Assembly (NCBI RefSeq): GCF_026130545.1
Contig: NZ_JAMOIM010000045.1
Span: 1-36,463, forward strand
Direction of reading: 5' to 3'
DNA: 36,463 nucleotides
From: Lichenifustis flavocetrariae
GTDB lineage: Bacteria; Pseudomonadota; Alphaproteobacteria; Rhizobiales; Beijerinckiaceae
Each line of letters opens with the position of its first letter. The first letter of the stretch is position 1. Under the pieces are notes generated by a model. It was not told where the DNA came from. It made no database searches and saw only the letters and a program-made list of their open reading frames with translations. Below are positions 1,871 to 36,463 of the stretch, piece by piece. The position numbers and the translations under genes are program-made.

Positions 1871-2698
1871 ATGAACGAGCAGTCCAACCCCTCACAATTC
1901 AAGAGTTTCGGCGCACAGCCGCCCGGCCCGTCCGGCCTTCGCCACCTCGCCCCCTGGGTGAAGGTTATCGCCGGTGGCGGTGTCGCCGCCGCCGTGACCT
2001 TCTATGCCCTCCAAGTCGGATTACCCGACGGTTGGCGGCCGTCGAGCGTCGCGGGCGACGCGGCTGGCGATACGGTCCGCCATGAGATCGAAGCCATGAA
2101 AGAGGCCAAGATCGACATGGAGCGGCGCATTGCGGACGCCACCGCTCAGGCAAACGCCAAGGCCCAGGCGGACCTCATCGCCATCCAGGTCGCCGCCAAC
2201 GAGCGCACCGCCGATCTTGCGGGTGAAACCGACATGGCGACCTTGGCCGACGTCGCCTGCATTGGCGCGCGGATCGTTTCCAGCCTGACCCAGCCGCAAG
2301 GTTGGGGCCGTAACGCCTCGGACGATTTCTATTACGCGGCGCAGAAGACCGGCGCGGCGACGTGCGGCATGGGTAATGCACTCCGCCAGGACATCACGCG
2401 CAGCCAGCTCGACGTCATCCGCCAAGCAGCGGCCGAACGCGGCGCGCCGATGAACGACGGCGCGGTGCGGACGGTCTCAACGCCCATTGCTCCCACTGCG
2501 TCGCCTTCGCCGATCCCGACCGTTGCGCACCGGGTGCTGACCGTGGAGGAGCACCGCCAACTCAAGGCATATGCCGAGCGTCAATCGAACGCTGTTCTGC
2601 AGCAGTTCGTGGAGGGGATCGACACCGTTCACTATGGCCTGACGCCGGAATGGTACGACCGGGTTGCCGATTATCGTGACGCACATCCCGAAACCTAA
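1871..2698 (+). CDS. Hypothetical single-pass membrane protein next to coupling ATPase
   Basis: The 275-residue product has a proline-rich N-terminus and one clear membrane segment at about residues 28-50 (WVKVIAGGGVAAAVTFYALQ). A charged, probably coiled region follows at 65-115 (EIEAMKEAKIDMERRIADA, AQANAKAQADL), then a mixed C-terminal domain with two cysteines. The protein should be anchored in the inner membrane by its N-terminus, with most of it on one side. It converges with the TraG-like gene, whose stop codon overlaps its own by four bases. Because that ATPase lacks its own membrane segments, this protein could anchor or assist it, but that is inference from position. No family is recognised. 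Confidence 0.65.
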   Translation: MNEQSNPSQFKSFGAQPPGPSGLRHLAPWVKVIAGGGVAAAVTFYALQVGLPDGWRPSSVAGDAAGDTVRHEIEAMKEAKIDMERRIADATAQANAKAQADLIAIQVAANERTADLAGETDMATLADVACIGARIVSSLTQPQGWGRNASDDFYYAAQKTGAATCGMGNALRQDITRSQLDVIRQAAAERGAPMNDGAVRTVSTPIAPTASPSPIPTVAHRVLTVEEHRQLKAYAERQSNAVLQQFVEGIDTVHYGLTPEWYDRVADYRDAHPET

Positions 2699-4416
2699 GC
2701 CCGCTTGCCGACGCTCTCCCGCTCTTCCCGCTCCGCGCGTTTCGTGCGGGGCGGCTTTTGGCCTTCGATGGTACCAAAAAGGCCACCAAATAAGCCGTCA
2801 TCCTCCTCGCTGTGATGGACGCAACGATGCAAGGCGCAAGGCGGCTTGTCGGGGATCATCACCAGGATGTTGCCGCGCTCCCGGCTGAACGCCTGAACGA
2901 TCTCGCTGGCATGCATCAGCGGCACACGCTGGATTTGTTCGCCTTTCGATTGGCCGCCGCCTTTGCTTTGGTTGGTGGACTCGGTGTTATTCGACTGGCC
3001 GCCGACGAGCGCCATCATCGGGTCGCCGCGCGATCCGCCAACCGCGTCCTGCCAGGTCTCGTTGGCGCTCTCGACGATCCGCACGACTTCGGTTTCGCCG
3101 AGGCGGGCGGCGATGTGATCCGTCGTGGTCAGGTCGGTGTTGCCAAAGAAGGTCAGCAACCCGGCATTGCCCATGAAAGTTTCCCAACCGTCCTTATAGT
3201 CGCGCTTAAGCTGAGTGAGGTCCTGAATGATGGGCCACAGCTTCACGCCGAAACTGGCAATCTGCCCGGCCGCCTTCTCGACTGTCTCCATGGTGCCGAG
3301 TGCGGCGAACTCATCGAGACAGAACAGCACGCGGTGCTGCCCGTCGCGCAGCGGCCCTGTCCGTTCCATGGCGTCCATGGCGAGCGTGACGAACATCCGG
3401 AGCCATCGCCCATGCGTCGCCAGGCGTGTCGCCGGCAGGCACAGATAGACCGTGATGCGCTTCGCTTTCAGGTCTTCCAGCCGGAACGACGACGCCGACA
3501 GGACGCGGGCCATCTGCTCGCCTTCCAAGAACGCGGTCTGCGTGGCGATCGTCGAGATGATCGAGTTCAACTCCTTCGCCTGCGTCCCCTGCATCGCCTC
3601 GCCGGTCCGGCCGATCAGGTCGATGCCGTGTTCCGCCATGGCAACCCACAGCGCATTCAGCGCCGCCTCGCCCTTCGTCACGATGCGACGCACCGTGACG
3701 AGGTTTTTACTGGCCGGCGGCTCTGTAGCCGCGACCCACATGACAAGCACCGTCAGCAATGCCCGCGCGGCTTGCGTCCAATGCGCCCCGTCGCCGTCCG
3801 ATTGGATGATGAGCGCGTCCGCGAGCTGATAGGCGAGATCGGCGCCCTCGCCCGTCGCGGGATCGAGATCGGCCAGGGGGTTGAAGCCGGCAAAGGCATG
3901 TTGCCGCGCGTCGCCTGTCACCCGGCTGAACGGATCGAGCGCGTACACCTCGCCCTCGCCCGGTGTCAGCGGCACCGACCAGTCCGACCCGCCGGCCGAT
4001 CGGCGCGATGCCGTCAGCGTCGCCAGTTCCCCCTTGGGATCGATGACCAAGGCGCTTCCAGGCCAGAACAGCAGGTTTGGCACGATCAGCGAGACGCCCT
4101 TGCCGGCGCGGCTTCCCGCGACGGTCAGGACGTGCCGGTCATCGTCGTGGCCGTAATAACGGCCCTTATGGTCGCGGCCGACAAGGAACATTCCCGGCTT
4201 CCACTCGCCGAATTTTGGGCCGTCCGGCCGGCTCTGAAACTCCGCCATTTCGTCGGCAGACGGCCAACGGCCCAAGGCGCTCGGCTTGTGCCGGTCGCCA
4301 TCCGGCAGGCCGCGCGGAAAACCTTCAGTTGCATCGCGCTCGTGCCGGGGCCGCGTATCCGCGACCGCCGGGGCCGCTGGCGCTGCGCTGCCGCGCTTGC
4401 CGGTCCACCATGCCAT
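2695..4416 (-). CDS. VirD4/TraG-like conjugative coupling ATPase, soluble form
   Basis: This is a type IV coupling protein of the VirD4/TraG/TraD family, which brings the relaxase-DNA complex to a conjugation channel. The 573-residue product has a Walker A motif at about 101-108 (GSRAGKGVS), the family motif VIDPKGE at 124-130, and Walker B LFCLDEFAALG near 363-373. Family members normally start with two membrane helices; none is present here. The ATG at 4416 was chosen because GGGGAGG precedes it and MAWWTGKRG is a plausible start; a longer frame reaches 4539 but adds no convincing helix. It is divergent from the MobQ relaxase across an oriT-like region. No VirB channel genes are in the window. 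Confidence 0.9.
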   Translation of the reverse strand: MAWWTGKRGSAAPAAPAVADTRPRHERDATEGFPRGLPDGDRHKPSALGRWPSADEMAEFQSRPDGPKFGEWKPGMFLVGRDHKGRYYGHDDDRHVLTVAGSRAGKGVSLIVPNLLFWPGSALVIDPKGELATLTASRRSAGGSDWSVPLTPGEGEVYALDPFSRVTGDARQHAFAGFNPLADLDPATGEGADLAYQLADALIIQSDGDGAHWTQAARALLTVLVMWVAATEPPASKNLVTVRRIVTKGEAALNALWVAMAEHGIDLIGRTGEAMQGTQAKELNSIISTIATQTAFLEGEQMARVLSASSFRLEDLKAKRITVYLCLPATRLATHGRWLRMFVTLAMDAMERTGPLRDGQHRVLFCLDEFAALGTMETVEKAAGQIASFGVKLWPIIQDLTQLKRDYKDGWETFMGNAGLLTFFGNTDLTTTDHIAARLGETEVVRIVESANETWQDAVGGSRGDPMMALVGGQSNNTESTNQSKGGGQSKGEQIQRVPLMHASEIVQAFSRERGNILVMIPDKPPCALHRCVHHSEEDDGLFGGLFGTIEGQKPPRTKRAEREERESVGKRA

Positions 4417-4532
4417 TGGCCTGCCTCCCCTGCCCCGGCCGGGGGTGCCGCCCTGCGGGCTATGCCGGCTGGCGCCGTCATTGTAGCCGGCGCCGCAGCG
4501 CCTGTCCCTCGCGCACGCGAGAAACCAGCAAT

Positions 4533-4629
4533 GGCGCACTTAACCAGAATTACATCGGGGCCGGTCATGGAAGGTCATGCCCTGCAAGGTCGTCCAAGAT
4601 GGCCGAACTTGCTCCCGATGCAATTCTGG
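4533..4629. other. Candidate origin of transfer (oriT), IncQ-like nic sequence
   Basis: On the minus strand, TTAAGTGCGCC lies at 4533-4543. It contains TAAGTGCGCC, which matches the core of the IncQ/RSF1010 nic region as I know it (TAAGTGCGCCCT). Immediately next to it is CCAGAATTACATCGGG (4544-4559), repeated in inverted orientation with one mismatch at 4614-4629 (CCCGATGCAATTCTGG). The site lies between the coupling ATPase and a MobQ relaxase, where oriT is expected. Nicking has not been shown; the match and position are the evidence. Confidence 0.55.
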
Positions 4630-4742: not shown

Positions 4743-5975
4743 GTGCGCATCCTCGAATTGACCGCCCATGTTCAGCATTTCAGCCGGGCAGAGGGCCGGT
4801 CCGCGACTGCCGCCGCCGCCTATCGAGCGTGCGCCCGGATCGCCTGCGAACGGGAAAGCCGCGTTCATGACTACCGGGGCAAGGCCGGGTTGGAAGCGAC
4901 CGGAATCGTTCTGCCAGCCGTAGCACCGGCATGGGCTTCGGACCGCGCACGGTTGTGGAACGCCGCCGAGCTGCGCGAACGCAACGGAGCGCGCGGTACC
5001 AATGCCGGGGCCTGGAAGCATGAGGCCATGGTGGCCCGTGAAATCCTCTTCGGGTTTCCGGCCGAGCTGTCACCGACCGGCCGCGTCGCGCTCGTGGACC
5101 GGATCGCGCGGCATCTGGTCGACGCGCATGGCGTCGCGGTCGATTGGGCCATCCACGCACCGGGCAAGATGGGCGATCAGCGCAACCACCATTGCCACAT
5201 GATGTTCACCACCCGCCGCATGACCGCGACCGGCCTTGCCGCCAAAACCCGCGAATGGAACAGCCGGGAAGGCGGCGGCCGGACCGTCGCGGCGATCCGC
5301 GCGACCCTGGCCGCGATGATGAACGAGGCTCTTGCCGGCGAGGGCGTCACCACGGTCCATGTCGAGCATCGCAGCTTAAAGGCGCGCGGCATCGGCCGGA
5401 TGCCGACGAAGCACATGGGACCAGGCAAAACGAATGCCGGTCGCAAGCGGCAGGCGCGCGAGCGATCGGCATGGGAGCGCCAGCATCGCCACGACCAGGC
5501 CGCGCGGCATGACCAGGAGCGTGCCAGCCAGACCCGCGACCGCGCCGCGCGCGGCGTGTCGCGAAGCCGCGATATCGACCAGCGAGAAGCGCAGGCGATC
5601 GAGCAGGCCAGGACGACACCGGAGACGACGACCACACAGCCGCAGCCGGGACGCCTGAAACGCCTAGTGCGCGCGATAACCGGCCGGGCCGATCGGCAGC
5701 ACGAACCAACCGCCCCCGCCCGCGTCGATCTCGAGCGCGACGTGCGGGCGACCTACCAGGCCGAACGCGAGCGCATGACAGCGGACCATCAGCGCGACGC
5801 GAAGGCCCTCGACGACCGGCACCGGTCGGAAGATCGGCAGCTCGATCGCGCCGCCCTCGCCCGCGCCGATCGTGACCGCGTGCAGGAGGTGCAGGAACGG
5901 CAGGGACATTCGGCCGGCCGAGACCATGACCGGACGCATGCGCGTGACGAACACGAGCGCGGGCATCGGCCGTAG
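4743..5975 (+). CDS. mobA: MobA/MobL (MobQ) family relaxase
   Basis: This relaxase would nick oriT and stay bound to the 5' end during transfer. A GTG start at 4743 was chosen because GAGGAGG precedes it and the product then begins as the family does (ILELTAHVQHFSRAEGRSA). Tyr27 in AAAAYRAC matches the position of the catalytic tyrosine in RSF1010 MobA. The metal-binding three-histidine motif is visible as H138, H150 and H152 in HAPGKMGDQRNHHCH. After about residue 240 the protein is Arg/Glu/Gln-rich and probably coiled coil, with no primase or helicase domain. An upstream ATG at 4599 is possible but poorly supported. The length, 410 residues, suits a compact mobilization relaxase. Confidence 0.9.
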   Translation: MRILELTAHVQHFSRAEGRSATAAAAYRACARIACERESRVHDYRGKAGLEATGIVLPAVAPAWASDRARLWNAAELRERNGARGTNAGAWKHEAMVAREILFGFPAELSPTGRVALVDRIARHLVDAHGVAVDWAIHAPGKMGDQRNHHCHMMFTTRRMTATGLAAKTREWNSREGGGRTVAAIRATLAAMMNEALAGEGVTTVHVEHRSLKARGIGRMPTKHMGPGKTNAGRKRQARERSAWERQHRHDQAARHDQERASQTRDRAARGVSRSRDIDQREAQAIEQARTTPETTTTQPQPGRLKRLVRAITGRADRQHEPTAPARVDLERDVRATYQAERERMTADHQRDAKALDDRHRSEDRQLDRAALARADRDRVQEVQERQGHSAGRDHDRTHARDEHERGHRP

Positions 5976-6229: not shown

Positions 6230-6586
6230 ATGGCACGACCGCGACTGGCACCCGAGGATCGGCGGGGCCATCCCACCGGCATCCGGCTCAACCTGGCCGA
6301 GGAGGCGAAGATCGACGCCGCCGCCTCGGCCTATGGCCTCAGCCGGGCCGATTATCTGCGGCGGCGCGGCCTCAATCATCGCCTGCCCTCGACCGTCGCC
6401 CTGGCCCACAGCGAAGCGCTACTAGCAACCGCCCTGCTACGCCTTGGCGTCAATCTCAACCAGATCGCGCATCATATGAACGCCGGGCGTGCCGCGCCCC
6501 ATGCCGAGCTGGACGCCCTGATCGCCCGCATCAACGAATGCCTGGATCAGCTCTATGATCCCGGCCCTGACGGAGCTGGGGCGTAG
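6230..6586 (+). CDS. mobC: MobC-like plasmid mobilization accessory protein
   Basis: The 118-residue product starts at an ATG preceded by AGGAAGGA. It has an N-terminal stretch of ribbon-helix-helix type (IRLNLAEEAKIDAAASAYGL, then YLRRRGL) and the typical MobC signature LLRLGVNLNQIAHHMN. MobC proteins help the relaxase open the DNA at oriT and often regulate the mob operon. Its 3' end overlaps the start of the downstream relaxase by 32 bases in another frame, which implies translational coupling. An upstream ATG at 6125 would add 35 residues encoded across the hairpin and is unlikely. Confidence 0.85.
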   Translation: MARPRLAPEDRRGHPTGIRLNLAEEAKIDAAASAYGLSRADYLRRRGLNHRLPSTVALAHSEALLATALLRLGVNLNQIAHHMNAGRAAPHAELDALIARINECLDQLYDPGPDGAGA

Positions 6587-9443
6587 CTTCAAGGGCGCAG
6601 CGGCCTACTACTTCAGCGATAAAGTCGCCACACTGGACTCGCCCGGCACCGTTGATCGCGTCGCCTGGACCGCCACCTTCAACCTGCCGACCGACGATCC
6701 GGACCGGGCCTGGCGGATGATGGCGCACACTGCCCTCGCCCAGCGGACCCTGAAAACGGTCGCCGGGGTGAAGGCAACTGGACGCAAGCTCGAAAAACCG
6801 GTCCTGGCCTATTCCCTGTCCTGGCATCCTGACGAGCGTCCGACCAAGGCAGACCAGCTTGCGGCTGCGCAGGAAAGCCTGCTGGCACTCTGCCTCGACG
6901 GTCATCAGGCGATCGTCATATGCCATACGGACGAGCCACACCCGCATGTCCACGTACTGGTCAACCGGGTGCATCCGATGACCGGCAAGGCTGCCCCTCT
7001 CGCGAAATCAAAGCTGGCTCTGTCCCAATGGGCGCAAGCCTATGAGGAGCGGCACGGCCGTGTGTTCTGTCGCGCCCGCGTCGAGAACAACGCCCGCCGT
7101 GCCGGCGTCAGCCCCGGCCGGGCGGCCGACAACCGAACCCCGCGCGCGCATCGGCGCGAGCACGAAGCCAGCGGATCGAAACGGCATGCTGCCGCGCTGC
7201 GCCGGCATCACGCGGAACTTTTCAGCGCACAGGCCGGGCAGGAACAGCAGGCATGGCAGCAGCGGACGGACGAGGTTCGCGCCTTCCGTGCCGGGCAGCG
7301 CGCCATCCGCAAGGCGGCGGCCGACCGCCTGCATCACCAGGCCGAGCTGGCTGGCCACCCCGGCCAGGCCGACGAAGCCGCGCGCGTGGCGGCCCTCCTG
7401 GCTGGCGACCGGCCGGCCGACGCGCTCCACGTTCTCACCCGCGACCGCTCGACCTTCACGCGGGCCGAGTTGGTGCGCTTCGTGGGCCGGCATACCCCGG
7501 ACGCGGCCGGCTTCGCGACCGCCATGGCGAAACTCGACGCCGCGCCCGAGCTGGTGCGGACCGGGCGCGACACGCGCGGCCGGGACCGCTTCACCACGCA
7601 GGCCCACCAGGCCCTTGAGCGGCGCATGGCTGATTCGGCCGACGCCCTCGCCCGCGCAGCTCAGGCAAAGGGCGATGTGGCAGCGCGGTTCAAGGGCCGG
7701 TCTCTGTGCGCCGATCAGCTGGAGGCGCTGCATCACGTCCTGACCGGCAACCGCTTGGCTTGCGTCGCCGGCATCGCCGGCTCCGGCAAGAGCACCATGC
7801 TCGACGCCGCCCGGCAGTCCTGGGAAGCGGCCGGCTTCCGGGTGCAGGGCATGGCCCTCGCGGCCGAGGCGGCACACGGCCTTCAGACCGGTGCCGGCAT
7901 CAAGACCGCCGGCACCATTCATTCCCGCCTGTATCTCTGGGAACAGGGACGCTGCCTGCCCGGCCCGAACGACGTTATCGTGGTGGACGAAGCCGGCATG
8001 GTCGGATCGCGCCAGATGGAGCGGCTGTTGCATTTCGCGCGGAAGGCGGGTGCCAAGGTCGTGCTGGTCGGCGACGCCCAGCAGCTCCAGGCAATCGAGG
8101 CCGGCGGCGCGTTCCGCGCCATCGCCGATCGTGTCGGCGACGTGACGCTCAGGACGGTCCGGCGGCAGAAGGTAGACTGGCAGCGCGACGCGACCGCCGA
8201 CCTCGCGGCCGGCCGCACCGCCGCCGCGCTCGACCGCTACGAGGCGGCTGGCATGGTCCACTCCCATGCCACCGGCGAGGACGCCAGGGCGGCCCTGATC
8301 GCGGCGTGGAACGCGGAGCGCCGCGCCCATCCGGACCGGTCGCAAATCGTCATGGCCTTCCTTCGCCGCGACGTCGCCGCGCTGAACGCGCTCGCCCGCG
8401 CCTGCATGCGGCAGGACGGAGCCTTAGGCGCAGACGTGACGTTGACCACGGCAGGCGGGCCGCAGGCCTTCGCCCAGGGCGACCGTCTTGCCTTCCTGCG
8501 CAACGACACCAAGCTCGGCGTGCGGAACGGCAGCCTCGGCACGATCGAGGCCATGCACGGCCGCACCCTGACCGTCCGCCTGGACGGCCAGTCCGGAAAC
8601 AGTGTGACGTTCAGCCTGGACGCTTATGGTCATGTGGCGCACGGTTACGCCGCGACGATCCACAAGAGCCAGGGCGCAACGGTAGACCGGGCGCATCTGT
8701 ATTGCAGCCCGAACCTCGACCGCCACGCGGCCTATGTCGCGATGACGCGGCACCGCGACCGGCTCGACCTGCACTGGTCGCGCGACAGCATCCCAGACCG
8801 GACGAGGCTCGCGGCGATCCTGTCTCGCGCAAATTTAAAAGACACCAGTCTCGATTATGCGGAAGACCGGGAACGCGAGCACGCAGCGCGGCACGAAGCG
8901 GCCGAGGCCATGCGCGACCGGGTTCACCGCCGCGCCGCCGCCTTCGCCGCGCGGGAAAAGACGCGCGAGGGCCGCATGGCGAACGCCCGCAGCATTCTTC
9001 CCTCCAGCGCCAGCCCCTTCCAAGTGGCCCGGCTGGCCCTGGACGCGCTTGGGCGCGCGCGCTTGTTCCGGCACCGGCAGAGCATCTTGCGGCAATGGGC
9101 GCGACGGATCCTGCCCGCGCCCTTGCCCGCCGCGCCGGCGATCGACCGCCTCACCCCGGCCGCGCGACGTGCCGCCATAGCGGCGCACGACGCCGAAACC
9201 TTGCGGCTGTTAAGCGAGATGGACGCCCGCCACGCGGATCAGCGCGCGGCCTGCCACACCGGCCGCGCCACCCTGCAACGGCAGGCGGCGGCGAATTGGC
9301 GATGCCTGACCTCGCGGGGCAGCACCACCGCCTCGTTCAACGTGGCGGGCACAACGGCCGAACCCCGGCAAGCGGGCCATCCGGTGAGCGTCAACGATAA
9401 CGTTGCCGATCGGGCGCCGCCTTCCGGTCCGCGCCCGCTTTAG
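6555..9443 (+). CDS. MobP-type relaxase fused to TraA-like RecD2-type helicase
   Basis: The product is 962 residues. The N-terminal part is a VirD2/MobP-type relaxase (Relaxase family): RSFKGAAAYYFSDK at 10-23 with candidate catalytic tyrosines 18 and 19, and the histidine motif HTDEPHPHVHVLVNR at 124-138. The second half is a superfamily 1 helicase like the one in Ti-plasmid TraA: Walker A GIAGSGKS at 406-413, Walker B VIVVDEAGM near 475, LVGDAQQL, and the late motif HGYAATIHKSQGATVDRAHL. In classical TraA the helicase is fused to a MobA/MobL (MobQ) domain, so this is a different pairing. The C-terminus is basic and low in complexity. It is coupled to the MobC-like gene by overlap. Confidence 0.9.
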   Translation: MIPALTELGRSFKGAAAYYFSDKVATLDSPGTVDRVAWTATFNLPTDDPDRAWRMMAHTALAQRTLKTVAGVKATGRKLEKPVLAYSLSWHPDERPTKADQLAAAQESLLALCLDGHQAIVICHTDEPHPHVHVLVNRVHPMTGKAAPLAKSKLALSQWAQAYEERHGRVFCRARVENNARRAGVSPGRAADNRTPRAHRREHEASGSKRHAAALRRHHAELFSAQAGQEQQAWQQRTDEVRAFRAGQRAIRKAAADRLHHQAELAGHPGQADEAARVAALLAGDRPADALHVLTRDRSTFTRAELVRFVGRHTPDAAGFATAMAKLDAAPELVRTGRDTRGRDRFTTQAHQALERRMADSADALARAAQAKGDVAARFKGRSLCADQLEALHHVLTGNRLACVAGIAGSGKSTMLDAARQSWEAAGFRVQGMALAAEAAHGLQTGAGIKTAGTIHSRLYLWEQGRCLPGPNDVIVVDEAGMVGSRQMERLLHFARKAGAKVVLVGDAQQLQAIEAGGAFRAIADRVGDVTLRTVRRQKVDWQRDATADLAAGRTAAALDRYEAAGMVHSHATGEDARAALIAAWNAERRAHPDRSQIVMAFLRRDVAALNALARACMRQDGALGADVTLTTAGGPQAFAQGDRLAFLRNDTKLGVRNGSLGTIEAMHGRTLTVRLDGQSGNSVTFSLDAYGHVAHGYAATIHKSQGATVDRAHLYCSPNLDRHAAYVAMTRHRDRLDLHWSRDSIPDRTRLAAILSRANLKDTSLDYAEDREREHAARHEAAEAMRDRVHRRAAAFAAREKTREGRMANARSILPSSASPFQVARLALDALGRARLFRHRQSILRQWARRILPAPLPAAPAIDRLTPAARRAAIAAHDAETLRLLSEMDARHADQRAACHTGRATLQRQAAANWRCLTSRGSTTASFNVAGTTAEPRQAGHPVSVNDNVADRAPPSGPRPL

Positions 9444-20690: not shown

Positions 20691-20882
20691 GTGTGTAGGG
20701 GCGGCAACCTCGGATACTGAGGGTTTTTAGTCAACTGAGATATCAGTCTTTTTAGCGAGCGGTCGAAGCCTCGGCCGCGGCAAATGTGAAGACATTTGCT
20801 GATCTATGACATTCTGCGGCACCAAGCGTGTCACCTGTAACCGTTGGTCCTCGCTGGCGCTCTTTCCGCATAAGGCGCATGG

Positions 20883-21167
20883 TTGCACCATTGCCGGCTT
20901 TTTCAGGCTTACGGCAACCGAGAGAGACGTGAGCTTTCGCCCAAGGCGAGTCACGACCATGGACCTCCAATTCATTCAACGTTTGCCCCGAACTATCGCG
21001 TCTTCTTCATATCTGCTCGCGGGAAACGAGAGACAGCGCCGGTGCTAATCGAGGCGCAAGATGATGGTGAGGCACTGCGGCGAATGCGTCTGCTCCTCGA
21101 CGGTCGAGCTGTTGAGCTCTGGGATCACGGGCGGGTGATCATTCGCTTACCGGCAAGGGCGTTTTGA
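20883..21167 (+). CDS. Small conserved-looking protein, start uncertain
   Basis: The second half of this frame reads NYRVFFISARGKRETAPVLI, then EAQDDGEALRRMRLLLDGRA, then VELWDHGRVIIRL. It resembles short alphaproteobacterial proteins of pattern YR.yfi....i....A..D.eAl..a.....g..vELW.g.R.i, which I know only as hypothetical. The first 30 or so codons look non-coding and there is no ATG in frame; the listed start is a TTG. The true gene may start near base 20970 or be N-terminally damaged. It overlaps the next ORF by one base. Confidence 0.45.
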   Translation: MHHCRLFQAYGNRERRELSPKASHDHGPPIHSTFAPNYRVFFISARGKRETAPVLIEAQDDGEALRRMRLLLDGRAVELWDHGRVIIRLPARAF

Positions 21168-21508
21168 TGGATGGCCGGCTTCCCAGCGATGAACGAGAGG
21201 CGCTGATCCGGTCGAAATTGGCAAGTTCAGTCACCAGGGTGAAAACGCGGATCGCGCTTTTGCGCCGGGGATCAAGGCGAGATCCAAGACCGAGATCCAG
21301 GCTTATTGTGTCGCTGCAGATGCATGGCTTGCCGGGAAGCAAGGGGCCAACTTTCCGCGCGCGCCGGAATGCGCGCGGCGCTACCCGAGTACAAAAGACC
21401 GCGTCACGGTGCCTGGAAGTCTCTAGCAGATCGTTTGAACTTTCAACCACGTCGAGGGTTAGCTCGGATGGAAAGCGACCCTGCCCCCTATACGCTGATC
21501 GTCGATGA
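21167..21508 (+). CDS. Weakly supported ORF between small gene and response regulator
   Basis: The ATG shares its A with the preceding stop (TGATG). The start MDGRLPSDEREALIRSKLAS is helical and protein-like for about 35 residues. After that the frame turns Arg/Ser-rich and repetitive in a way typical of a non-coding frame, and it runs 41 bases into the response regulator. It may be a short gene that has lost its end, or not a gene. Confidence 0.25.
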   Translation: MDGRLPSDEREALIRSKLASSVTRVKTRIALLRRGSRRDPRPRSRLIVSLQMHGLPGSKGPTFRARRNARGATRVQKTASRCLEVSSRSFELSTTSRVSSDGKRPCPLYADRR

Positions 21509-21881
21509 TGACGCGCTTCTGCGCATGGACATCGCCGAGCTGCTGGACAATGTCGGTTTCAGGACCCTCGAGGCAGCCAACAGCGGTGAGGCGATCGAGC
21601 TGTTGAAGCAGCACCACGCCGATATCGTGCTGCTCTTCACCGACGTTCAGATGCCTGGCAAAAACGGGTTTGCCCTTGCACGAGAGACGGCCCGATGCTG
21701 GACGCATATTGCCATCGTTGTGGCGTCAGGCAATGTCAAACCCGCACCTGGCGAGCTGCCAGAGGGAGCGCATTTTATTGCCAAGCCTTTCAGTGCCGAC
21801 ACTGTGCATGGGCATCTACAGGAAATCCTACCGGATGGACAAAAGCCCGCGCCGTTAAAACGCATGTCAGAGGCAAATTGA
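21468..21881 (+). CDS. Orphan single-domain response regulator
   Basis: The 137-residue receiver has LIVDDDALLRMD with D13-D15, phospho-acceptor D59 in LFTDVQMPGKNGF, VVASGN and K106 in AKPF. It has no output domain. The sequence is closer to receivers that pair with hybrid kinases or act as phosphate sinks than to the plasmid's other receiver proteins. No kinase lies on the same strand nearby; the soluble kinase at 19736-20554 is transcribed the other way and could serve both. ATG 21468 gives the normal family start. Confidence 0.88.
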   Translation: MESDPAPYTLIVDDDALLRMDIAELLDNVGFRTLEAANSGEAIELLKQHHADIVLLFTDVQMPGKNGFALARETARCWTHIAIVVASGNVKPAPGELPEGAHFIAKPFSADTVHGHLQEILPDGQKPAPLKRMSEAN

Positions 21882-27754: not shown

Positions 27755-27824
27755 GACGCTGCCCCTCTCGCGCACACCCTGCCCGCAAATCACCCGCTGC
27801 GATCCTGAGTCTGCCCGGCAGGGC

Positions 27825-27890
27825 CTACACCTTCAACAGGTCCTTGCAGCTTCCAGCCCGGTTTCCGCCCCATGGCGGCGAACGTCACCG
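27825..27890 (-). pseudogene. Fragment of a umuC 3' end
   Basis: Read on the minus strand, 27890-27846 matches the end of the intact umuC (28763-28719) at 42 of 45 bases, encoding [14 protein letters not shown]. It is followed by GACCTGTTGAAGGTGTAG, the counterpart of the umuC terminus (GACCTGCTGACGGTGTAG). About 41 bases between these are missing. So this is a deleted 3' scrap of a related polymerase gene. Confidence 0.75.
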
Positions 27891-27945
27891 ATCGTCACAC
27901 TTTTGATGTCTCTGTCATCGTCCGGGCGTCGCCCCGAAGACGGGA

Positions 27946-28238
27946 CCGCGCTCTAGCCAAGGGGCCGGAGCCTCGTGAAGCGTCGAGTCTCCGCGCATGC
28001 GCGTGACGATCGCTGACGCGAAGCCAGCAAGACAGAAAGAAAGCGGACCGTGCCGGTCCCGGCCGTCAATCACTGAAGAACGGGCAAGAGCCCGCGTCCG
28101 GCGGGTCCCTCCCCAGTCTTCGGCCCGTGAAGGACGGGCCTGCCAGACCGGGAGCTCCCCCACCCGCCGGCCGGTGATGACTGCCTCCTCCCGCTTATCG
28201 CCGCGTGGCTAGCAGGGTTGCATATGCAACCCTTTAAA
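27946..28238 (+). repeat. 293-bp non-coding leader element, copy 1
   Basis: This copy matches 31061-31353 with ten substitutions and no gaps. It contains several stem candidates: GGGC(A/G)AGAGCCC, CCGGCGGGTCC..., and at the 3' end the 18-base palindrome GGGTTGCATATGCAACCC followed by TTTAAA. It ends 22 bases before the start of a 122-aa gene, with the ribosome site just after the hairpin. Two of the ten changes fall in the loop of the end hairpin and one in the loop of GGGCRAGAGCCC, so the stems are kept. A 71-codon frame inside it also survives in both copies, but its substitutions are not clearly biased to silent ones. It is likely a structured RNA leader or mobile regulatory cassette. Confidence 0.8.
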
Positions 28239-28260
28239 TTATAAGCTAGGAGAAGAAAAC

Positions 28261-28629
28261 ATGAGCACTGCCAACACCATAAACCTCGGAACCGCTACGA
28301 TCGCCATCCCGGCAAGCTGCCCGCAGCCGGATATCTTCAAAGCCGTCTTCATGGCGCGTCTGATCGAACGCTTCGGAACGGCAGAGACAGCAGCCGATGC
28401 TCTCGCACAGTGGCAACACATCCAGCCCGTGCCGCAGCCCTTCTCCGTCAATGCCGAAGCCACACGGCTCTACCGTGAGGCCGGCTATGCCCTGAACCCC
28501 AAGGCGAAAGCATGGGATGATTTTCAGGAAGAGGTGTTCTGCGCTTTCCTCGATTTCGAGGAGGACGGTTCGGACCGGACCCCGCCTATCCCAGGCTGGT
28601 CAATGGATCCATCAGACCTGCCCGGTTAA
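28261..28629 (+). CDS. Hypothetical protein behind leader element copy 1
   Basis: The 122-residue protein begins MSTANTINLGTATIAIPASC. It has a helical central part (IFKAVFMARLIERFGTAETA, ADALAQWQHIQPVP) and an acidic C-terminus (CAFLDFEEDGSDRTPPIPGW). There is no signal peptide or membrane helix. AGGAG lies ten bases before the ATG, directly after the hairpin that ends the 293-bp element. The small acidic character recalls DNA-mimic or anti-restriction proteins, but no match to a known family is seen. It converges with umuC. Confidence 0.65.
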   Translation: MSTANTINLGTATIAIPASCPQPDIFKAVFMARLIERFGTAETAADALAQWQHIQPVPQPFSVNAEATRLYREAGYALNPKAKAWDDFQEEVFCAFLDFEEDGSDRTPPIPGWSMDPSDLPG

Positions 28630-28659
28630 GGAAAGACACGGAGCGGGGCACCTGCCCCG

Positions 28660-29922
28660 CTACACCGTCAGCAGGTCTTCCCAGGCCGTCGTGTAGCGCG
28701 GCGAGATGAAATCGCTCCGCAGCTTCCAGCCGGGCTTCCGCCCCATGGCGGCGAATGTCACCGTTCCCCGCCCGTATTTGGCATTGAGCGCGTCGAGCGC
28801 CCGCATCCGGGCCATCGCCTTCGGATCGTCAGGCCGATCGAACAGGCCTCCCTGCACAGTATCGGCCGCGACCAGGTTCAGCAGCATCACCCCCGCCTTC
28901 TTGTATTCGAGGCCGGACCGCCAGAGCGCATCGAGCGCCCGCATCGCGGCATGGTTCAGCTTGCCGGTGTCGGCCGACGCCACGGGCAGCGTCACCGACC
29001 GCTCGGCCGCATATTGCCGGTCTTGCGGCCTGTGCTTGTCCGTCGTGACGAACACCGTCAGACGGCCGCAGGCGAGGTTCTGCCGGCGCAGCTTCTCGGC
29101 CGCCCGCGCCGTGTGCGTCGTGACCGCCTCCTCCAGCTCGCGCCGCGTGGTGACACGACGGCCGAACGACCGCGAGGCCAAGATCATCTTGCGATCGGGC
29201 GGAGCCTCCTCGAGGCTGATGCAGGGGATGCCTTGCAGCTCGAGCACCATCCTTTCCATGACTACGCTCGTATGCATCCGCACGAATTTTGCGTCCGCCT
29301 GGCGTAGATCGAGCGGGTTTTTGATGCCGATCGCCTGCAAACGCTCCGCCATCCGGTGCGCGACCCCCCACAGATCGGTCAATTCGACCCGTTCGAGGGC
29401 CGCTTCCTGCTCTGCCGAGGTCAAAAGCACCAGAACGCCCCCGCTTTCGGGCGTCTTCTTCGCCGTGCGGTTCGCCAGCTTGGCGAGCGTCTTGGTCGGC
29501 GCGATGCCGACCGACACGGGGATGCCCGTCCATTGCAGCACCGTCGCCCGCATCTCCCGTGCATGCGCGTCCAGACGGCTTTCGAAGCCCGCCAGGCCGA
29601 GGAACGCTTCGTCGATCGAATACACTTCCAGATCGGGCGAGAAGCCTTCCAGCACTCGCATGACACGCGCGCTCATATCGCCGTACAGGGTGTAATTGCT
29701 CGACCGGACGATGATGCCCTGCGTATCGACCCGCTTGCGGCAGATGTGCCAGGGTTCGCCCATCTCGATGCCCAGAGCCTTGGCCTCGTTCGAGCGGGCG
29801 ATGACGCAGCCATCGTTATTGGACAACACGACCACGGGCTGGCCCCGCAGCTTCGGCTGAAACAGCCGCTCGCAGCTCGCATAGAAATTATTGCAGTCCA
29901 CCAATGCGATAGGGGCGGTCAC
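28660..29922 (-). CDS. umuC: Y-family DNA polymerase, UmuC subunit of Pol V
   Basis: The 420-residue protein is full length for UmuC. Visible features are [18 protein letters not shown] with the first metal Asp, [30 protein letters not shown] with the catalytic Asp-Glu pair, [20 protein letters not shown] and the helix-hairpin-helix [18 protein letters not shown]. It copies damaged DNA during the SOS response. A GTG at 29922 was chosen: it gives the family start ([12 protein letters not shown]) and lies five bases after the umuD-like stop, with AGGGA in front. A longer frame to 29964 would overlap umuD. It is co-transcribed with the umuD-like gene from an SOS promoter. Confidence 0.95.
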
Positions 29923-29927
29923 GGTCC

Positions 29928-30482
29928 CTAAAACATGCGGATGGCGTGTTTCACGACACCCCACACCTCGAAGGCGGAATCCTCGGGAATGACGATGTCC
30001 TTGAAGGCCTTATTCTCGGCCTGGAGGACGATGCCGCCCGCCTTGACGCGATACCGCTTGATGGTGAATTCGCCGTCGATCAGCGCCAGCACCACGCAGC
30101 CGTTGAAGGGCGACAGGGAGCGGTCGACGATCGCGATGTCCCCCGGAAACAGGCCGGCCCCATTCATGCTGTCGCCTGAAATCCGCACCGCGAACGTCGC
30201 GGACGGGTTTGAAATCAGCAGCTCGTTGAAGTCAAGCGGACGGTCCAGATAGTCGTCGGCCGGGCTGGGAAACCCGCAGGCGGCCGGCGAGGCCATCAGC
30301 GGCACCGTCACGTTGCTTCGCGCCTCGACGTTGAAGAAGGCGTTCAGGTCGCCCGGCCTGAGCGATCCTTCCGCGATGCGCCTGGCGATCGTCGCCACCC
30401 GCAGCGGCAGGCGTACCACCTTGGTCGCCTCGCCCGGTTGCCGGCCGCCCATGCCTTTGCGGCTGACGCTGTATCGACCCAT
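29928..30482 (-). CDS. umuD: UmuD/LexA-like S24 self-cleaving protein
   Basis: The 184-residue protein is a member of peptidase family S24. The cleavage site is CG/F at 69-71 ([16 protein letters not shown]), the nucleophile S105 lies in [15 protein letters not shown], and the general base is K142 in EFTIKRYR. It is longer than E. coli UmuD (139 residues): about 45 extra basic residues precede the cleavage region. It should activate the UmuC polymerase after RecA-stimulated cleavage. The ATG at 30482 follows GAGGGGCAGGGC. A perfect SOS box lies 32 bases upstream. It overlaps nothing and leads directly into umuC. Confidence 0.92.
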
Positions 30483-30496
30483 GCCCTGCCCCTCAA

Positions 30497-30511
30497 TATC
30501 CGTTACGGATA
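30497..30511. promoter_or_regulatory. Palindrome TATCCGTTACGGATA upstream of umuD
   Basis: The half-sites TATCCG and CGGATA are perfectly inverted around TTA, 15 bases from the start codon. The position between the SOS box and the gene suggests an operator for a second regulator or a 5' mRNA hairpin. Confidence 0.5.
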
Positions 30512-30513
30512 CT

Positions 30514-30528
30514 GAACAAAACAGGAAC
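30514..30528 (-). promoter_or_regulatory. LexA (SOS) box GTTC-N7-GTTC
   Basis: On the minus strand GTTCCTGTTTTGTTC is a perfect match to the alphaproteobacterial LexA consensus GTTCN7GTTC. It lies 32 bases before the umuD-like start, so the umuDC operon is expected to be repressed by the host LexA and induced by DNA damage. Confidence 0.9.
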
Positions 30529-30561
30529 ATCCGGCAAGGAAATAAGTTCGGGACGATACGA

Positions 30562-30909
30562 TTAGCGGTGCAGATCGTGATCGAGATGCGGGGCCGGTCC
30601 CTGCCCGACATCCGGGCGCGGTGCCGGCGCGGACGTGTACGGGGTGCCGTCATCAGGATTGCCGACCAGGCGGTTGTACAGCCCGCCTTCGGCCTTCCGC
30701 ATCACCTTGGCGGCGCGATCGTCGCCCTTCACCTCATCGAGGCAGGCGAACGCCACCTTGAACGCTGTCGCGGCCACCGTCGGCCAATCGACCGCGCGGC
30801 CGTCTCCCTTGTCGAACAGCTTCACCGCGTACTGGCGCAGCGCCGTCTCGGGATCGACATTCGGGGTGGGACGGCGCGGCCGTCCCTTACTGCCTCCAGG
30901 CGATTTCAC
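30562..30909 (-). CDS. Hypothetical protein, 115 aa, GTG start
   Basis: The product (MKSPGGSKGRPRRPTPNVDP, then ETALRQYAVKLFDKGDGRAV, then DWPTVAATAFKVAFACLDEV) has a basic N-terminus and a helical core. The C-terminus is Pro/His-rich. No family is recognised; the basic start suggests nucleic-acid binding. TACACT lies eight bases before the GTG without a ribosome site, so the message may be leaderless, as for the BrnA-like gene at 26112. It is upstream of and on the same strand as umuDC, 80 bases before its start. Confidence 0.6.
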   Translation of the reverse strand: MKSPGGSKGRPRRPTPNVDPETALRQYAVKLFDKGDGRAVDWPTVAATAFKVAFACLDEVKGDDRAAKVMRKAEGGLYNRLVGNPDDGTPYTSAPAPRPDVGQGPAPHLDHDLHR

Positions 30910-31060
30910 AGGGTCAGTGTAGCAGGCGAGGTCTTAAAACCCGTTAACGGACCGATGCGCCGCACCTCACCCAGGAACACAGGGGAACGCGGCACAGCGC
31001 ATCAGCCTGGCAGGTTCTACCGGTCAAAGATTGACGGACGGTGTGGCGTCTCCCTGCGGG

Positions 31061-31353
31061 CCGCGCTCTAGCCAAGGGGCCGGAGCCTCGTGAAGCGCCG
31101 AGTCTCCGCGCATGCGCGTGACGATCGCTGACGCGAAGACAGCAGGACAGAAAGCAAGCGGACCGTGCCGGTCCCGGCCGTCAATCACTGAAGAACGGGC
31201 GAGAGCCCGCGTCCGGCGGGTCCCTCCCCAGTCTTCGGCCCGTGAAGGACGGGCCTGCCAGACCGGGAGCTACCCCACCCGCCGGCCGGTGATGACAGCC
31301 TCCTCCCGCTTATCGCCGCGGGGCTAGCAGGGTTGCATGCGCAACCCTTTAAA
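31061..31353 (+). repeat. 293-bp non-coding leader element, copy 2
   Basis: This matches 27946-28238 (ten substitutions, no gaps). Its end hairpin is GGGTTGC ATGC GCAACCC followed by TTTAAA. It ends 19 bases before the DNA methyltransferase ATG. Identity stops sharply at both edges: the flanks of the two copies are unrelated. The two copies are 3115 bases apart in direct orientation and bracket umuDC and two unknown genes. Confidence 0.8.
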
Positions 31354-31372
31354 CAATTAAGAGAGGCAGAAA

Positions 31373-32035
31373 ATGGAGTTTTTAAACAGCATCATACAAG
31401 GCGATTGCAGGCAGGTTTTGCAGACCTTTCCCAGCCTGTCGGTTGATCTGGTCGTGACCGATCCGCCCTATTTGGTGAATTACCGCGACCGCAGCGGCAG
31501 GACGGTAAAGAACGATGGGGGCGAAACCGGAATCCTCTCGGCATTCTCCGATATGTACCGGGTGTTGAAGCCAAACAGCATTTGCGTGTCGTTTTACGGC
31601 TGGAACCGGGCCGATGAGTTTTTCAAGGCTTGGCGGGAAGCGGGTTTTCGGCCCGTGGCGCATATCGTTTGGAAGAAGGACTACACCTCAAAGGCCGCCT
31701 TTGTGCAGTACCGGCATGAACAGGCCTATGTGCTGGCGAAGGGCAACCCGCAGCTTCCGGCTAAGCCCATCGAGGACGTGCAGCCATGGGCCTACAGTGG
31801 CAACCGCGCCCACCCGACCGAAAAGGCCGTCAGTATCCTGCAACCCATCATCCGATCTTTCTCACGCCCCGGCGCTATCGTGCTGGATCCATTCAGCGGA
31901 TCAGGCAGCACAGCCGTAGCCGCCGCCCTTTGTGGCCGCTCCTATGTCGGGGTCGAATTGGAAGCCGATTATTGCGCCCATGCCCGCACTCGCCTTGCTG
32001 GCGCAGCGAAATACGCAGTTCGAAAGCCGACCTAA
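31373..32035 (+). CDS. Orphan DNA methyltransferase, beta class (N6-adenine or N4-cytosine)
   Basis: The 220-residue protein has motif IV DPPY at 30-33 before the cofactor motif I DPFSGSGST near 172-180, the beta-class order. The intervening part has YRVLKPNSICVSFYGWN and the late HPTEKAVSILQPIIRSF. It is short, with a small target-recognition region between the motifs. No restriction endonuclease is adjacent, so it may be a solitary regulator, a phage-like protection enzyme or an epigenetic modifier. AGAGAGG lies before the ATG. Its expression is probably linked to the 293-bp leader directly upstream. Confidence 0.92.
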   Translation: MEFLNSIIQGDCRQVLQTFPSLSVDLVVTDPPYLVNYRDRSGRTVKNDGGETGILSAFSDMYRVLKPNSICVSFYGWNRADEFFKAWREAGFRPVAHIVWKKDYTSKAAFVQYRHEQAYVLAKGNPQLPAKPIEDVQPWAYSGNRAHPTEKAVSILQPIIRSFSRPGAIVLDPFSGSGSTAVAAALCGRSYVGVELEADYCAHARTRLAGAAKYAVRKPT

Positions 32036-32106: not shown

Positions 32107-32155
32107 ATTTTGTTGCTACAAAACTTCAACCCTTTCAGGCATTTTGTTGCTACAA
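32107..32155 (+). promoter_or_regulatory. BrnTA promoter with repeated ATTTTGTTGCTACAA
   Basis: ATTTTGTTGCTACAA occurs at 32107-32121 and 32141-32155, 34 bases apart. TACAAT in the second copy is a -10 hexamer ending five bases before the ATG at 32162, so the message is nearly leaderless. The pair of repeats is a good candidate for the BrnA operator. Confidence 0.65.
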
Positions 32156-32161
32156 TATTCC

Positions 32162-32440
32162 ATGGAGATTGAGTTCGATCCGGAGAAAAGCGCGAAGAAC
32201 GAGGCCGAGCGCGGCCTCCCCTTCGCGCTTGCCGCCGAACTGGACTGGCAACGCGCCCTCGTTTTCGTGGACGACCGGCACGATTACGGCGAGGAGCGGC
32301 TGATCGCCGTCGCGCCGCGCCACGGACGGCTGCACGTCGTCTGCTTCGTGGACCAGGGCGACGTCCGCCGGATTATCAGTTTCAGGAAAGCCAACAAACG
32401 AGAGGAGAAAGCCTATGCCGAAGCAACCGCTGACCGATAA
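32162..32440 (+). CDS. brnT: BrnT toxin
   Basis: The 92-residue protein has the BrnT signature: IEFDPEKSAKNEAERGLPFA at the start, then ERLIAVAPRHGRLHVVCFVD and RRIISFRKANKREEKAYAEA. BrnT is a RelE-like ribonuclease that stops translation. The ATG was placed at 32162 because the -10 hexamer lies just upstream; a frame from 32144 would start inside the promoter. The gene overlaps brnA by 26 bases, which couples the two. Confidence 0.92.
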   Translation: MEIEFDPEKSAKNEAERGLPFALAAELDWQRALVFVDDRHDYGEERLIAVAPRHGRLHVVCFVDQGDVRRIISFRKANKREEKAYAEATADR

Positions 32441-32714
32441 AGACGGCGAAGTTCGCGAACTGACCGCCGCAGACTTCGAGCACGCCCGACCGATCGCCGA
32501 GGCGGCCCCCGGCATGATCGAGGCCATGCAGCGCTTCAAGAAACGGGTCGGACGGCCGAGCCAGGCCGACACCCCCAAGGTTCATGTCGGGTTTCGCATG
32601 GCGGCCGACGTGGTGGACGGCATCAAGGCGACCGGCAAAGGCTACAATGCCCGCGTCGAACAGGTCTTGCGCGAGGCCCTGGCTTCCGGCCGCTTTGGCG
32701 ACCTGAAGCACTGA
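32415..32714 (+). CDS. brnA: BrnA antitoxin
   Basis: The 99-residue protein contains the BrnA pattern: a flexible N-terminus that blocks BrnT (LTAADFEHARPIAEAAPGMI) and a C-terminal ribbon-helix-helix (KVHVGFRMAADVVDGIKATG then KGYNARVEQVLREAL). It represses the operon and neutralises BrnT. AGGAGAAAGCC precedes the ATG. It overlaps brnT. Antitoxin instability would make this an addiction module for the plasmid. Confidence 0.9.
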   Translation: MPKQPLTDKDGEVRELTAADFEHARPIAEAAPGMIEAMQRFKKRVGRPSQADTPKVHVGFRMAADVVDGIKATGKGYNARVEQVLREALASGRFGDLKH

Positions 32715-34804: not shown

Positions 34805-36463
34805 TTGCTGTGGACGCTGGCAATTGTCAGTTTCTGTGCGCAGCTCAGCATTCCGGCGATGGACGAGGCAGGCGTAAAGATGAGTCAGACGGCGCAGAAA
34901 GTCAGATCGGAACTGATACCACGCGACTCTATGTATACCAATTTACTAAGAGGTAAAAAAGCAGAACTTCTCGTGGCAAAAATAGCGTTTTCTTCGCCAG
35001 TCGCTACAATTATTCCGATTTATATCTGCCGCTCTTTTGTGATGGACCCGCAGGAAGCGACACGTCTACCAGAGGATTATACTAATATTGGTGATATTGA
35101 ACAAGATATCACCAAATCTGACACTTTGATCGAGCCTAAGGCCGATGATTTTAGAGCTTTTTTCAATCGAAGCAACATATACGCAAGGAAGGGCGACTTC
35201 TACCTAGCCATTGCCGACTTCGGGGCTGCGATCGGGCTTGACCCAGGCGATGCCGATGCCTTCAACAATCGGGGCAACGCCTACGACCAGAAAGGCGAGT
35301 TCGACCGGGCGATCGCCAACTTCGACGCCGCGATCGGGCTCGGCCCCGGCAATGCTGTCGCCATCAACAATCGGGGCATTGCCTATAACCAGAAAGGCGA
35401 CCTTGACCGGGCCATTGCCGGCTTCGACGCCGCGATCGAGCTCGATCCCAGCCATGCTGGCGCCTTCTATAATCGGGGCGTGGCCTATGGCAACAAAGGT
35501 GACCTCGACCGGGCCATTGCCGACTACAACGCCGCGATCGGGCTCGATCCCGGCCATGCCGGTGCCTTCAACAATCGGGGCGCGGCCTATAACCAGAAAG
35601 GCGACTTTGACCGGGCGTTTGCCGACTTCGAGGCTGCGATCGGGCTTGATCCCAGCGATGCTGTTGCCTTCAATAATCGGGGCGCGGCCTATTACCGGAA
35701 AGGCGACCTTGACCGGGCGATTGCCGACTACGACGCCGCGATCGGGCTCGACCCCAGTCATGCTGTCACCTTCCACAATCGGGGTGCGGCCTACGGTCAG
35801 AAAGGCGACCTCGATCGGGCCATTGCTGACTTCGACGCCGCGATCAGGCTCGATCCCAACTACGCTGTCGCCTACTACAATCGGGGCAACATCTATAACC
35901 GGAAGGGCGACCTCGATCGGGCCATTGCTGACTTCGACGCCGCGATCAGGCTCGATCCCGGCCATGCCGGTGCCTTCAACAGTCGGGGCGCGGCCTATGG
36001 CAACAAAGGCGACTTTGACCGGGCGTTTGCCGACTTCGAGGCTGCGATTGGGCTCGACCCCAGCCATGCCGGCGCCCACTACAATCGGGGCAACATCTAT
36101 AACCGGAAGGGCGACCTCGATCGGGCCATTGCTGACTTCGACGCCACGATCGGGCTCTATCCCAGCTATGCTGTCGCCTTCAACAATCGAGGCGTGGCCT
36201 ATGGCAACAAAGGCGATTTTGACCAAGCCGTTACCGACTTCGACGCCGCGATCGGGCTCGATCCCAGTCATGCTGTCACCTTCTACAATCGGGGTGCGGC
36301 CTACGGTCAGAAAGGCGACCTTGATCGGGCGATTGCCGACTACACCGCCGCGATCGGGCTCGATCCCGGCATTGCCGGTGCCTTCAACAATCGGGGTGCG
36401 GCCTACGGTCAGAAAGGCGACCTTGATCGGGCGATTGCCGACTACACCGCCGCGATCGGGCTC
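34805..36463 (+). CDS. TPR-repeat protein, N-terminal part (continues at left end of window)
   Basis: This is the 5' part of the gene that ends at 1064. No ATG gives the hydrophobic start; a TTG at 34805 would encode LLWTLAIVSFCAQLSIPAMD, a short signal-like segment, with ATGs at 34859 and 34880 as alternatives that lose it. An AT-rich region of about 100 codons follows (KAELLVAKIAFSSPVATIIP). From 35165 there are exact 102-bp units, thirteen starts in this window without any indel, each encoding NRG.AY..KGD.DRAIADFDAAIGLDP. Such TPR arrays form superhelical binding surfaces. The repeat DNA is near-identical, so copy number can change by recombination. It is in frame with 3-1064 across the overlap. 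Confidence 0.8.
   Translation, partial: MLWTLAIVSFCAQLSIPAMDEAGVKMSQTAQKVRSELIPRDSMYTNLLRGKKAELLVAKIAFSSPVATIIPIYICRSFVMDPQEATRLPEDYTNIGDIEQDITKSDTLIEPKADDFRAFFNRSNIYARKGDFYLAIADFGAAIGLDPGDADAFNNRGNAYDQKGEFDRAIANFDAAIGLGPGNAVAINNRGIAYNQKGDLDRAIAGFDAAIELDPSHAGAFYNRGVAYGNKGDLDRAIADYNAAIGLDPGHAGAFNNRGAAYNQKGDFDRAFADFEAAIGLDPSDAVAFNNRGAAYYRKGDLDRAIADYDAAIGLDPSHAVTFHNRGAAYGQKGDLDRAIADFDAAIRLDPNYAVAYYNRGNIYNRKGDLDRAIADFDAAIRLDPGHAGAFNSRGAAYGNKGDFDRAFADFEAAIGLDPSHAGAHYNRGNIYNRKGDLDRAIADFDATIGLYPSYAVAFNNRGVAYGNKGDFDQAVTDFDAAIGLDPSHAVTFYNRGAAYGQKGDLDRAIADYTAAIGLDPGIAGAFNNRGAAYGQKGDLDRAIADYTAAIGL
35165..36463 (+). repeat. 102-bp tandem repeat array encoding TPRs
   Basis: Units start at 35165 and every 102 bases to 36389; the phase continues at 96 and 198 on the left end. 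Individual units differ mostly in the codons for residues at the helix ends. The array contains about fifteen near-identical units when the ends are joined, with diverged ones outside. Confidence 0.9.
36396..36463. repeat. 68-bp terminal redundancy with bases 1-68
   Basis: The last 68 bases equal the first 68. They allow a circle of 36395 bp in which the TPR gene is uninterrupted. The same 68 bases also occur at 36296-36363, so an assembly end inside a repeat could produce this without telling the exact unit number. Confidence 0.85.

Follow-up and report, generated by a model that had tools for sequence, protein, structure and literature searches.

A 36,463-base contig of Lichenifustis flavocetrariae (NZ_JAMOIM010000045.1, assembly GCF_026130545.1), analyzed whole and called the window below, carries two copies of a 296-nucleotide (nt) element, each just upstream of a different gene. 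We lean, by a modest degree, to the reading that both copies are Frpo-type leaders active on plasmid entry (zygotic induction), driving early anti-defence genes. The element is one of a family of mobile leaders carried by alphaproteobacterial plasmids and related elements. That it is a portable structured cassette placed before start codons is well supported, since two of its hairpins, hairpin C and the terminal hairpin, covary and since an open reading frame (ORF) begins 13 to 25 nt behind 27 of 43 sites. The better-preserved relatives share a part with the single-strand promoters of plasmid F, which suggests that the leader switches on anti-defence genes upon entry of the plasmid into a new cell.

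In the proposed mechanism, the plasmid would enter the recipient as a single strand, and its bottom strand would fold into a multi-hairpin structure. Host RNA polymerase would start at this folded strand and read into the gene just downstream, which here encodes either a 122-amino acid (aa) protein or a methyltransferase of the F leading-region type. Once the second strand had been made, the structure would be lost and expression would stop. The scheme supposes that the divergent 5' domain of the window copies is the same domain as that of the relatives, that folding and polymerase binding occur in vivo with a start site at the folded strand, and that the bottom strand is the one transferred.

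The duplicated leader and its family

The two copies constitute one direct-repeat family with two members, which are 96% identical without gaps and lie 3.1 kb apart (Table 1). They differ at 11 of the 296 positions. Ten of these mismatches fall within the 293 positions considered by the first-pass annotation, whose count of 283 ungapped identities is exact. Its other observations hold as well: the flanks differ on both sides, the start codon of a different gene follows closely behind each copy (28261 and 31373), and each copy contains a GGGTTGC/GCAACCC hairpin, the terminal hairpin of Table 1. The statement that substitutions spare the stems is true only in part; those at 28086 and 28224/28225 are in loops, but the T/G difference at 28206 breaks a pair of the CCCGC/GCGGG stem in copy 1.

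The element has relatives that were reached by BLAST, and these matches tie the window copies to the family independently of any model. The whole element gives a partial match of 84.5% over 58 nt to two Bradyrhizobium plasmids (expectation value, E, 1e-6), a shorter query reaches E 5e-7, and a genome of the host's own family (G010) is matched at E 1.2e-6. One further BLAST match (L007) was dropped because it looks like a chance match within a coding region. An exact 17-mer search of 385 genomes returned a single match, the window. Elsewhere in the host's own genome there are just two partial matches, both to the 5' part of the element; these partial 5'-domain copies (L003:1500-1577 and L004:1495-1577) continue into another sequence common to the two instead of the remainder of the element.

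The relatives share a common design. A 5' domain (the E-domain) is followed by hairpin A, by a long-range stem II that encloses an apical module, by hairpin C, and by the terminal hairpin, behind which come a ribosome binding site and a start codon. The apical module is of two kinds, TTTCCCC...GGGTGATCCCCCTCC and CCGTGGCTC...GCGCCCGCACC, which take the same position in elements that are otherwise alike (L020 and L035-L037 versus L079 and L084). In each copy, the longest plus-strand frame free of stops within the element runs for 77 codons; in seven relatives, stop-free stretches run from 28 to 98 codons in varying frames, which leaves the earlier suggestion of a tiny protein within the element without support.

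A covariance model (R1) that covers the 3' 65 positions and was built from 14 sequences, both window copies among them, finds 19 sites of at least 30 bits; these are spread over 12 of 385 alphaproteobacterial genomes, one of them the host's. Matches with E of 0.01 or less occur in 47 of the 385, those below 30 bits not being counted as members. The first-pass annotation had proposed such a search; it recovers the family in alphaproteobacterial genomes, with compensatory changes and a near-constant place before start codons. Some contigs have multiple sites, three on contig 15 of G203 and four on contig 17 of G308, each set on one strand. The genes that follow were scanned at 43 sites, comprising element or module matches plus six reached through a methyltransferase relative, with starts chosen first by ribosome binding site, then ATG, then proximity. 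Besides the 27 sites with an ORF of at least 50 aa at 13 to 25 nt (one of 51 aa may be a relic), 11 have an ORF at 12 or at 32 to 105 nt, four of these distances being measured from a BLAST match and not from R1, and five have none within 200 nt. A search of openly licensed papers, supplements aside, found no description of this leader family.

The genes behind the leader are diverse. ArdC lies behind family members by its domains (PF08401/PF18818 in L083 and L035), by record annotations and by protein matches; ArdA, DUF3560 and DnaJ-domain proteins are also found, as are RadC in Thiothrix, DUF3846, and an isochorismatase in one Bradyrhizobium plasmid. Among 11 methyltransferase relatives found by protein, R1 is present just upstream in six, with scores of 67.8 (L008) and 55.9 bits (L010), 22.9-23.7 bits (L016, L015 and L011), and 18.0 bits for the terminal hairpin only (L012). 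An E-domain upstream at L013 brings the loci with R1 or E-domain to seven of the 11; the other four (L009, L014, L018 and L017, the last with its upstream DNA missing) have neither. On contig 36 of G189 (L093, L095), two methyltransferase genes lie 9 kb apart, each with a weak match to the terminal hairpin just upstream. A protein search for ArdC gave 48 matches in 37 of the 385 genomes. R1 lies upstream of the seven highest-scoring of the 30 loci fetched and is absent from the other 23, among which one has a clear E-domain (L124) and two have weak ones. Loci L104 and L105 are also more than 60% identical and have no R1 upstream. Since the seven R1-bearing loci were already known from the genome search, this search adds no sites; it shows that the leader is linked to one ArdC clade.

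The domain that the relatives share with plasmid F

The connection to F comes through the relatives. Of the 3148 plasmid records matched by a Peteryoungia relative (L027), seven enterobacterial genera account for 3138; among the 60 matches listed, the enterobacterial ones match the 5' domain of L027 only. The E-domain match in R100 is located upstream of ssb. Anchored slices of 20 alphaproteobacterial E-domains were made into a profile, which matches R100, plasmid F (at two places), pSB102, and a P. putida plasmid (R100 and pSB102 were reached by BLAST with the relatives, and F was chosen by accession). A second version of the profile, limited to 16 relatives and free of copies from the window and the host's own genome, matches F at record positions 58105-58172 (E 2.6e-9) and 63498-63560 (E 3.6e-8), with nothing else below E 1 in the 17.5 kb of F searched, and R100 at E 8.3e-10. 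In a leave-one-out analysis, each of the 16 relatives is recovered at E 1e-3 or better. A profile of the own-genome E-domain copies alone does not find the F sites.

The two F matches are the 5' parts of a repeat, 89% identical over 559 nt, whose copies are 5.4 kb apart and end about 20 nt before ssb and before a gene at 64032. In the available text of PMC9849209, Frpo2 lies ahead of ssb and Frpo1 ahead of ygeA/ygeB; the two are given as 92% identical and some 5 kb from each other, and early expression in recipients is reported to require them. Judged by position, the F repeat probably covers Frpo1 and Frpo2.

The element resembles Frpo1/Frpo2 in several respects: two similar copies stand before different genes and end about 20 nt before the start, the DNA is strongly folded, the E-domain is common to F and the element's relatives, and the neighbours include methylase and umuDC-like genes. 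As with Frpo and ssi sites, its place is before anti-defence genes of the leading-region kind, namely the methyltransferase here and ArdC, ArdA and others behind the relatives. However, the element spans 296 nt compared with the 559 nt of the F repeat, and the remainder of that repeat is absent; its terminal hairpin is not visible at the ends of the F repeat; no -10 box was found in it; and the E-domain of the window copies is divergent. The sites ssi2 and ssi3 of ColIb-P9, named in the available text of PMC7736820, also lie in a region with ssb, psiB, ardA, a methylase, and umuDC.

The element is not filed as an Frpo because a -10/-35 pair was not found and the direct sequence link to F is not significant. 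Tentatively, and with less confidence than the reading as an entry leader of the Frpo kind, we consider that the family could be a separate alphaproteobacterial class of entry-activated single-strand promoters. Such a class would combine the F-shared domain with a different core and interchangeable apical modules, and would place unrelated anti-defence genes, known and unknown, under one entry signal in several copies per plasmid.

Folding and the strand that carries it

Of the 12 pairs in the R1 region, eight change on both sides among 35 R1 matches (33 distinct). In this alignment, fitted to the R1 model and thus leaning towards covariation, 28 cells show changes on both sides compared with 6.6 +/- 2.0 after shuffling; none of 500 shuffles reaches 28, and the signal is destroyed when the pairing partners are slid. 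This covariation shows that pairing is kept, which argues against an ordinary duplex promoter or operator cassette that was copied with the gene start and folds only incidentally. Duplication of cassettes within plasmids is common, but no sigma-70-like duplex site is present in 27850-31450, where just 0.6 would be expected by chance, and we regard such a cassette as highly improbable.

Other tests used a set of 33 elements, from which rows that were more than 85% alike, contained N, or were too short were removed, leaving 26 for the helix and TTGAC counts and 28 for the frame and wobble tests. The long-range helix next to hairpin C has a mean of 8.65 versus 7.15 with shuffled upstream DNA in the 26 elements, with p values from 0.01 to 0.97, and the chosen helix is not always stem II; in the window, the pick is an apical stem (p 0.19). 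The sequence TTGAC occurs on the bottom strand in the region of the stem II 5' arm in 16 of 26 elements, where shuffles give 2.0; the top strand has it in the region of the 3' arm in 7 of 26, where shuffles give 1.5. Common descent can explain both enrichments. An intrinsic terminator or attenuator was rejected: TTTT lies within 8 nt of the terminal hairpin arm at just 2 of 28 sites.

The main rival is a structured RNA leader, in which a plus-strand transcript from an upstream duplex promoter would fold and control translation or stability. The near-constant place just before the ribosome binding site and the covarying hairpins fit it, as do the folds of the plus-strand RNA (z -2.7 and -2.95). 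The bottom strand, folded as DNA, gives z of -3.6 (copy 2) and -5.1 (copy 1). A true fold is expected to tolerate G.T on its own strand. When both strands were folded with Watson-Crick pairs only and only shared helices were counted, there were 10 internal sites where the top strand has A.C and the bottom strand G.T, versus two with G.T on the top, the shuffles giving 19 and 20 (one-sided p 0.016). This pattern mildly favours folding of the bottom strand. In addition, the 5' domain of the relatives is common to F repeats that would be needed for expression from single strands, and the genes behind the element share an entry role rather than a metabolite. Because of that shared domain at the probable Frpo1/Frpo2 sites and the wobble pattern, the better interpretation is a structure that the single DNA strand forms on entry, and an RNA leader seems unlikely, though less so than any other rival. 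Of the first-pass proposals, a portable structured regulatory cassette before start codons stands, and RNA as its working form is the less probable reading.

An RNA leader also has no counterpart in Rfam: nothing reaches the gathering threshold across the window, and with the limit relaxed to E 10 for 27800-31500 and to E 1 for 12 relative loci, no relevant match appears. The radC RNA motif (RF01754) is proteobacterial and found before radC and other DNA-handling genes; none of six records exceeds its cut-off at the element, and sub-threshold matches occur elsewhere only. The STAXI motif occurs near single-strand-binding and antirestriction genes, and a possible function in single-stranded DNA is discussed for it in the available text of PMC2864571; there it is described as repeated pseudoknots, whereas the element is without any Rfam match.

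A further alternative is a single-strand initiation (priming) site for second-strand synthesis that lies near the genes but is not needed for their expression. In its favour, Frpo transcripts also act as primers according to the available text of PMC7736820, and several copies per contig lie on one strand. The tight distance to anti-defence start codons would be unneeded for priming, which makes this explanation very unlikely.

Several results weigh against an entry leader of the Frpo kind. The best window match of the 16-relative profile, 27942-28018, has the right strand and register but an E of 0.81, which lowers our confidence. With a profile of seven nearer relatives, picked afterwards for a shared GTGACGATC, the two copies take the first two ranks in the window (E 0.84 and 0.94). 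Beyond its E-domain, the F repeat finds nothing in the element but a stretch of 36-39 nt at E 0.2-0.7. The step from the window to F is therefore based on strong 3' similarity to the relatives and on position, not on a significant direct match, and no role was found for the E-domain held in common with F. In ColIb-P9, no E-domain is present in the 50 kb searched, though two other pieces are common with F. No -10 box was found on reading the folds of the element, nor was the pair of -35 and -10 boxes that a folded Frpo or ssi strand rebuilds; the search for a duplex sigma-70-like site, noted above with its chance expectation of 0.6, was negative too. The top strand also folds better than its shuffles, as DNA (z -2.6, copy 2) as well as RNA. 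Finally, the wobble sites are few, with L085/L020 and L082/L089 each repeating one site.

The direction of transfer was approached by a survey of two relaxase families in 24 genomes or records, 18 of which have a relaxase on the contig of the element. The element lies on the same strand as the relaxase in nine (the window, G308, W02, W07, W08 and W10-W13) and on the opposite strand in six (G224, G423, G475 by the nearest relaxase, W03, W05 and W14); three have relaxases on both strands (G203, W06 and W09). Several of these relaxases are tens of kb from the element. The mixed orientation neither supports nor refutes the entry-strand model.

Genes around the copies and the plasmid that carries them

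Table 1. Positions of the leader copies, their parts, and other features of the window
Feature	Position	Strand	Basis
Element copy 1, leader of 122-aa gene	27943..28238	+	repeat search and difference count
Element copy 2, leader of methyltransferase gene	31058..31353	+	repeat search and difference count
Putative E-domain position, copy 1 (divergent)	27940..28019	+	profile without window copies; best in-window match 27942-28018, E 0.81
Putative E-domain position, copy 2 (divergent)	31055..31134	+	profiles without window copies; matches 31098-31134 (E 0.94) and 31055-31133 (E 0.5)
Hairpin A, copy 1 (GGACCG TGC CGGTCC)	28045..28059	+	sequence; stem listing
Hairpin A, copy 2	31160..31174	+	sequence; stem listing
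Stem II 5' arm, copy 1 (contains GTCAA)	28061..28075	+	sequence; folds
Stem II 3' arm, copy 1	28173..28185	+	sequence; folds
Stem II 5' arm, copy 2 (contains GTCAA)	31176..31190	+	sequence; folds
Stem II 3' arm, copy 2	31288..31300	+	sequence; folds
Hairpin C, copy 1 (one pair broken)	28190..28207	+	covariation analysis
Hairpin C, copy 2 (CCCGC/GCGGG)	31305..31322	+	covariation analysis
Terminal hairpin, copy 1	28215..28232	+	covariation analysis
Terminal hairpin, copy 2	31330..31347	+	covariation analysis
122-aa protein, no recognised family, behind copy 1	28261..28629	+	
DNA methyltransferase behind copy 2	31373..32035	+	PF01555; NF010253 over cut-off
UmuC-like Y-family polymerase between copies	28660..29964	-	
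UmuD/LexA-like S24 peptidase between copies	29928..30653	-	
TraD/TraG-type coupling protein	2695..4539	-	
Possible origin of transfer (oriT; a guess): 16-nt inverted repeat between coupling protein and relaxase	4544..4629		
MobA/MobL relaxase domain ORF (domain 4797-5438)	4797..5975	+	
Relaxase plus helicase ORF	6555..9443	+	

The 122-aa protein has no match in the plasmid collection and finds only itself in 149 genomes. The methyltransferase is 57% identical over 210 aa to the F leading-region methylase. Plasmid methyltransferases specific for single strands are described in the available text of PMC7736820, with a Frpo upstream of one; judged through the F methylase only, the window enzyme is related by sequence to leading-region methylases and may resemble this M.EcoGIX/M.BceJIII type. 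The umuDC-like genes between the copies recall the umu-like operons that, in the available text of PMC11541004, flank many leading-region anti-defence islands. Two further short repeats, of 48 nt (27846-27893/28719-28766) and 66 nt (26385-26450/27276-27341) and both at 92%, lie near the element and suggest that local duplication built the region. A BrnT/BrnA toxin-antitoxin pair (32144-32714) comes after the methyltransferase.

The contig is probably a mobilisable plasmid, since it encodes a RepA-type initiator, ParA, a coupling protein, and two relaxase domains; the MobA/MobL ORF and the relaxase-helicase ORF are consecutive on one strand (4797-9443). Repeats of about 22 base pairs (bp) (TTCGGGACATTAGGAAC) at 12234-12340, behind the RepA-type gene, are likely iterons. 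The two contig ends have 68 exact bases in common. Because they fall in a 102-bp repeat array that spans both ends (1-418 and 35086-36463) and by its look encodes a repeat protein, they are weak evidence of a circle; the contig may be circular or broken at the array. A KaiC-like ATPase, a histidine kinase, and two response regulators are grouped at 17815-21881.

The single-strand promoters named in the available text of the cited literature are those of F and ColIb-P9, together with candidates in other conjugative elements. If the reading as an entry leader is true, an alphaproteobacterial family would open early anti-defence expression to tests in rhizobia, caulobacters, and their relatives. 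What follows the leader would also point to new anti-defence candidates, such as the 122-aa protein here and, elsewhere, the DnaJ-domain and DUF3560 proteins. Natural variants of the leader would help narrow down the minimal parts of such a promoter.

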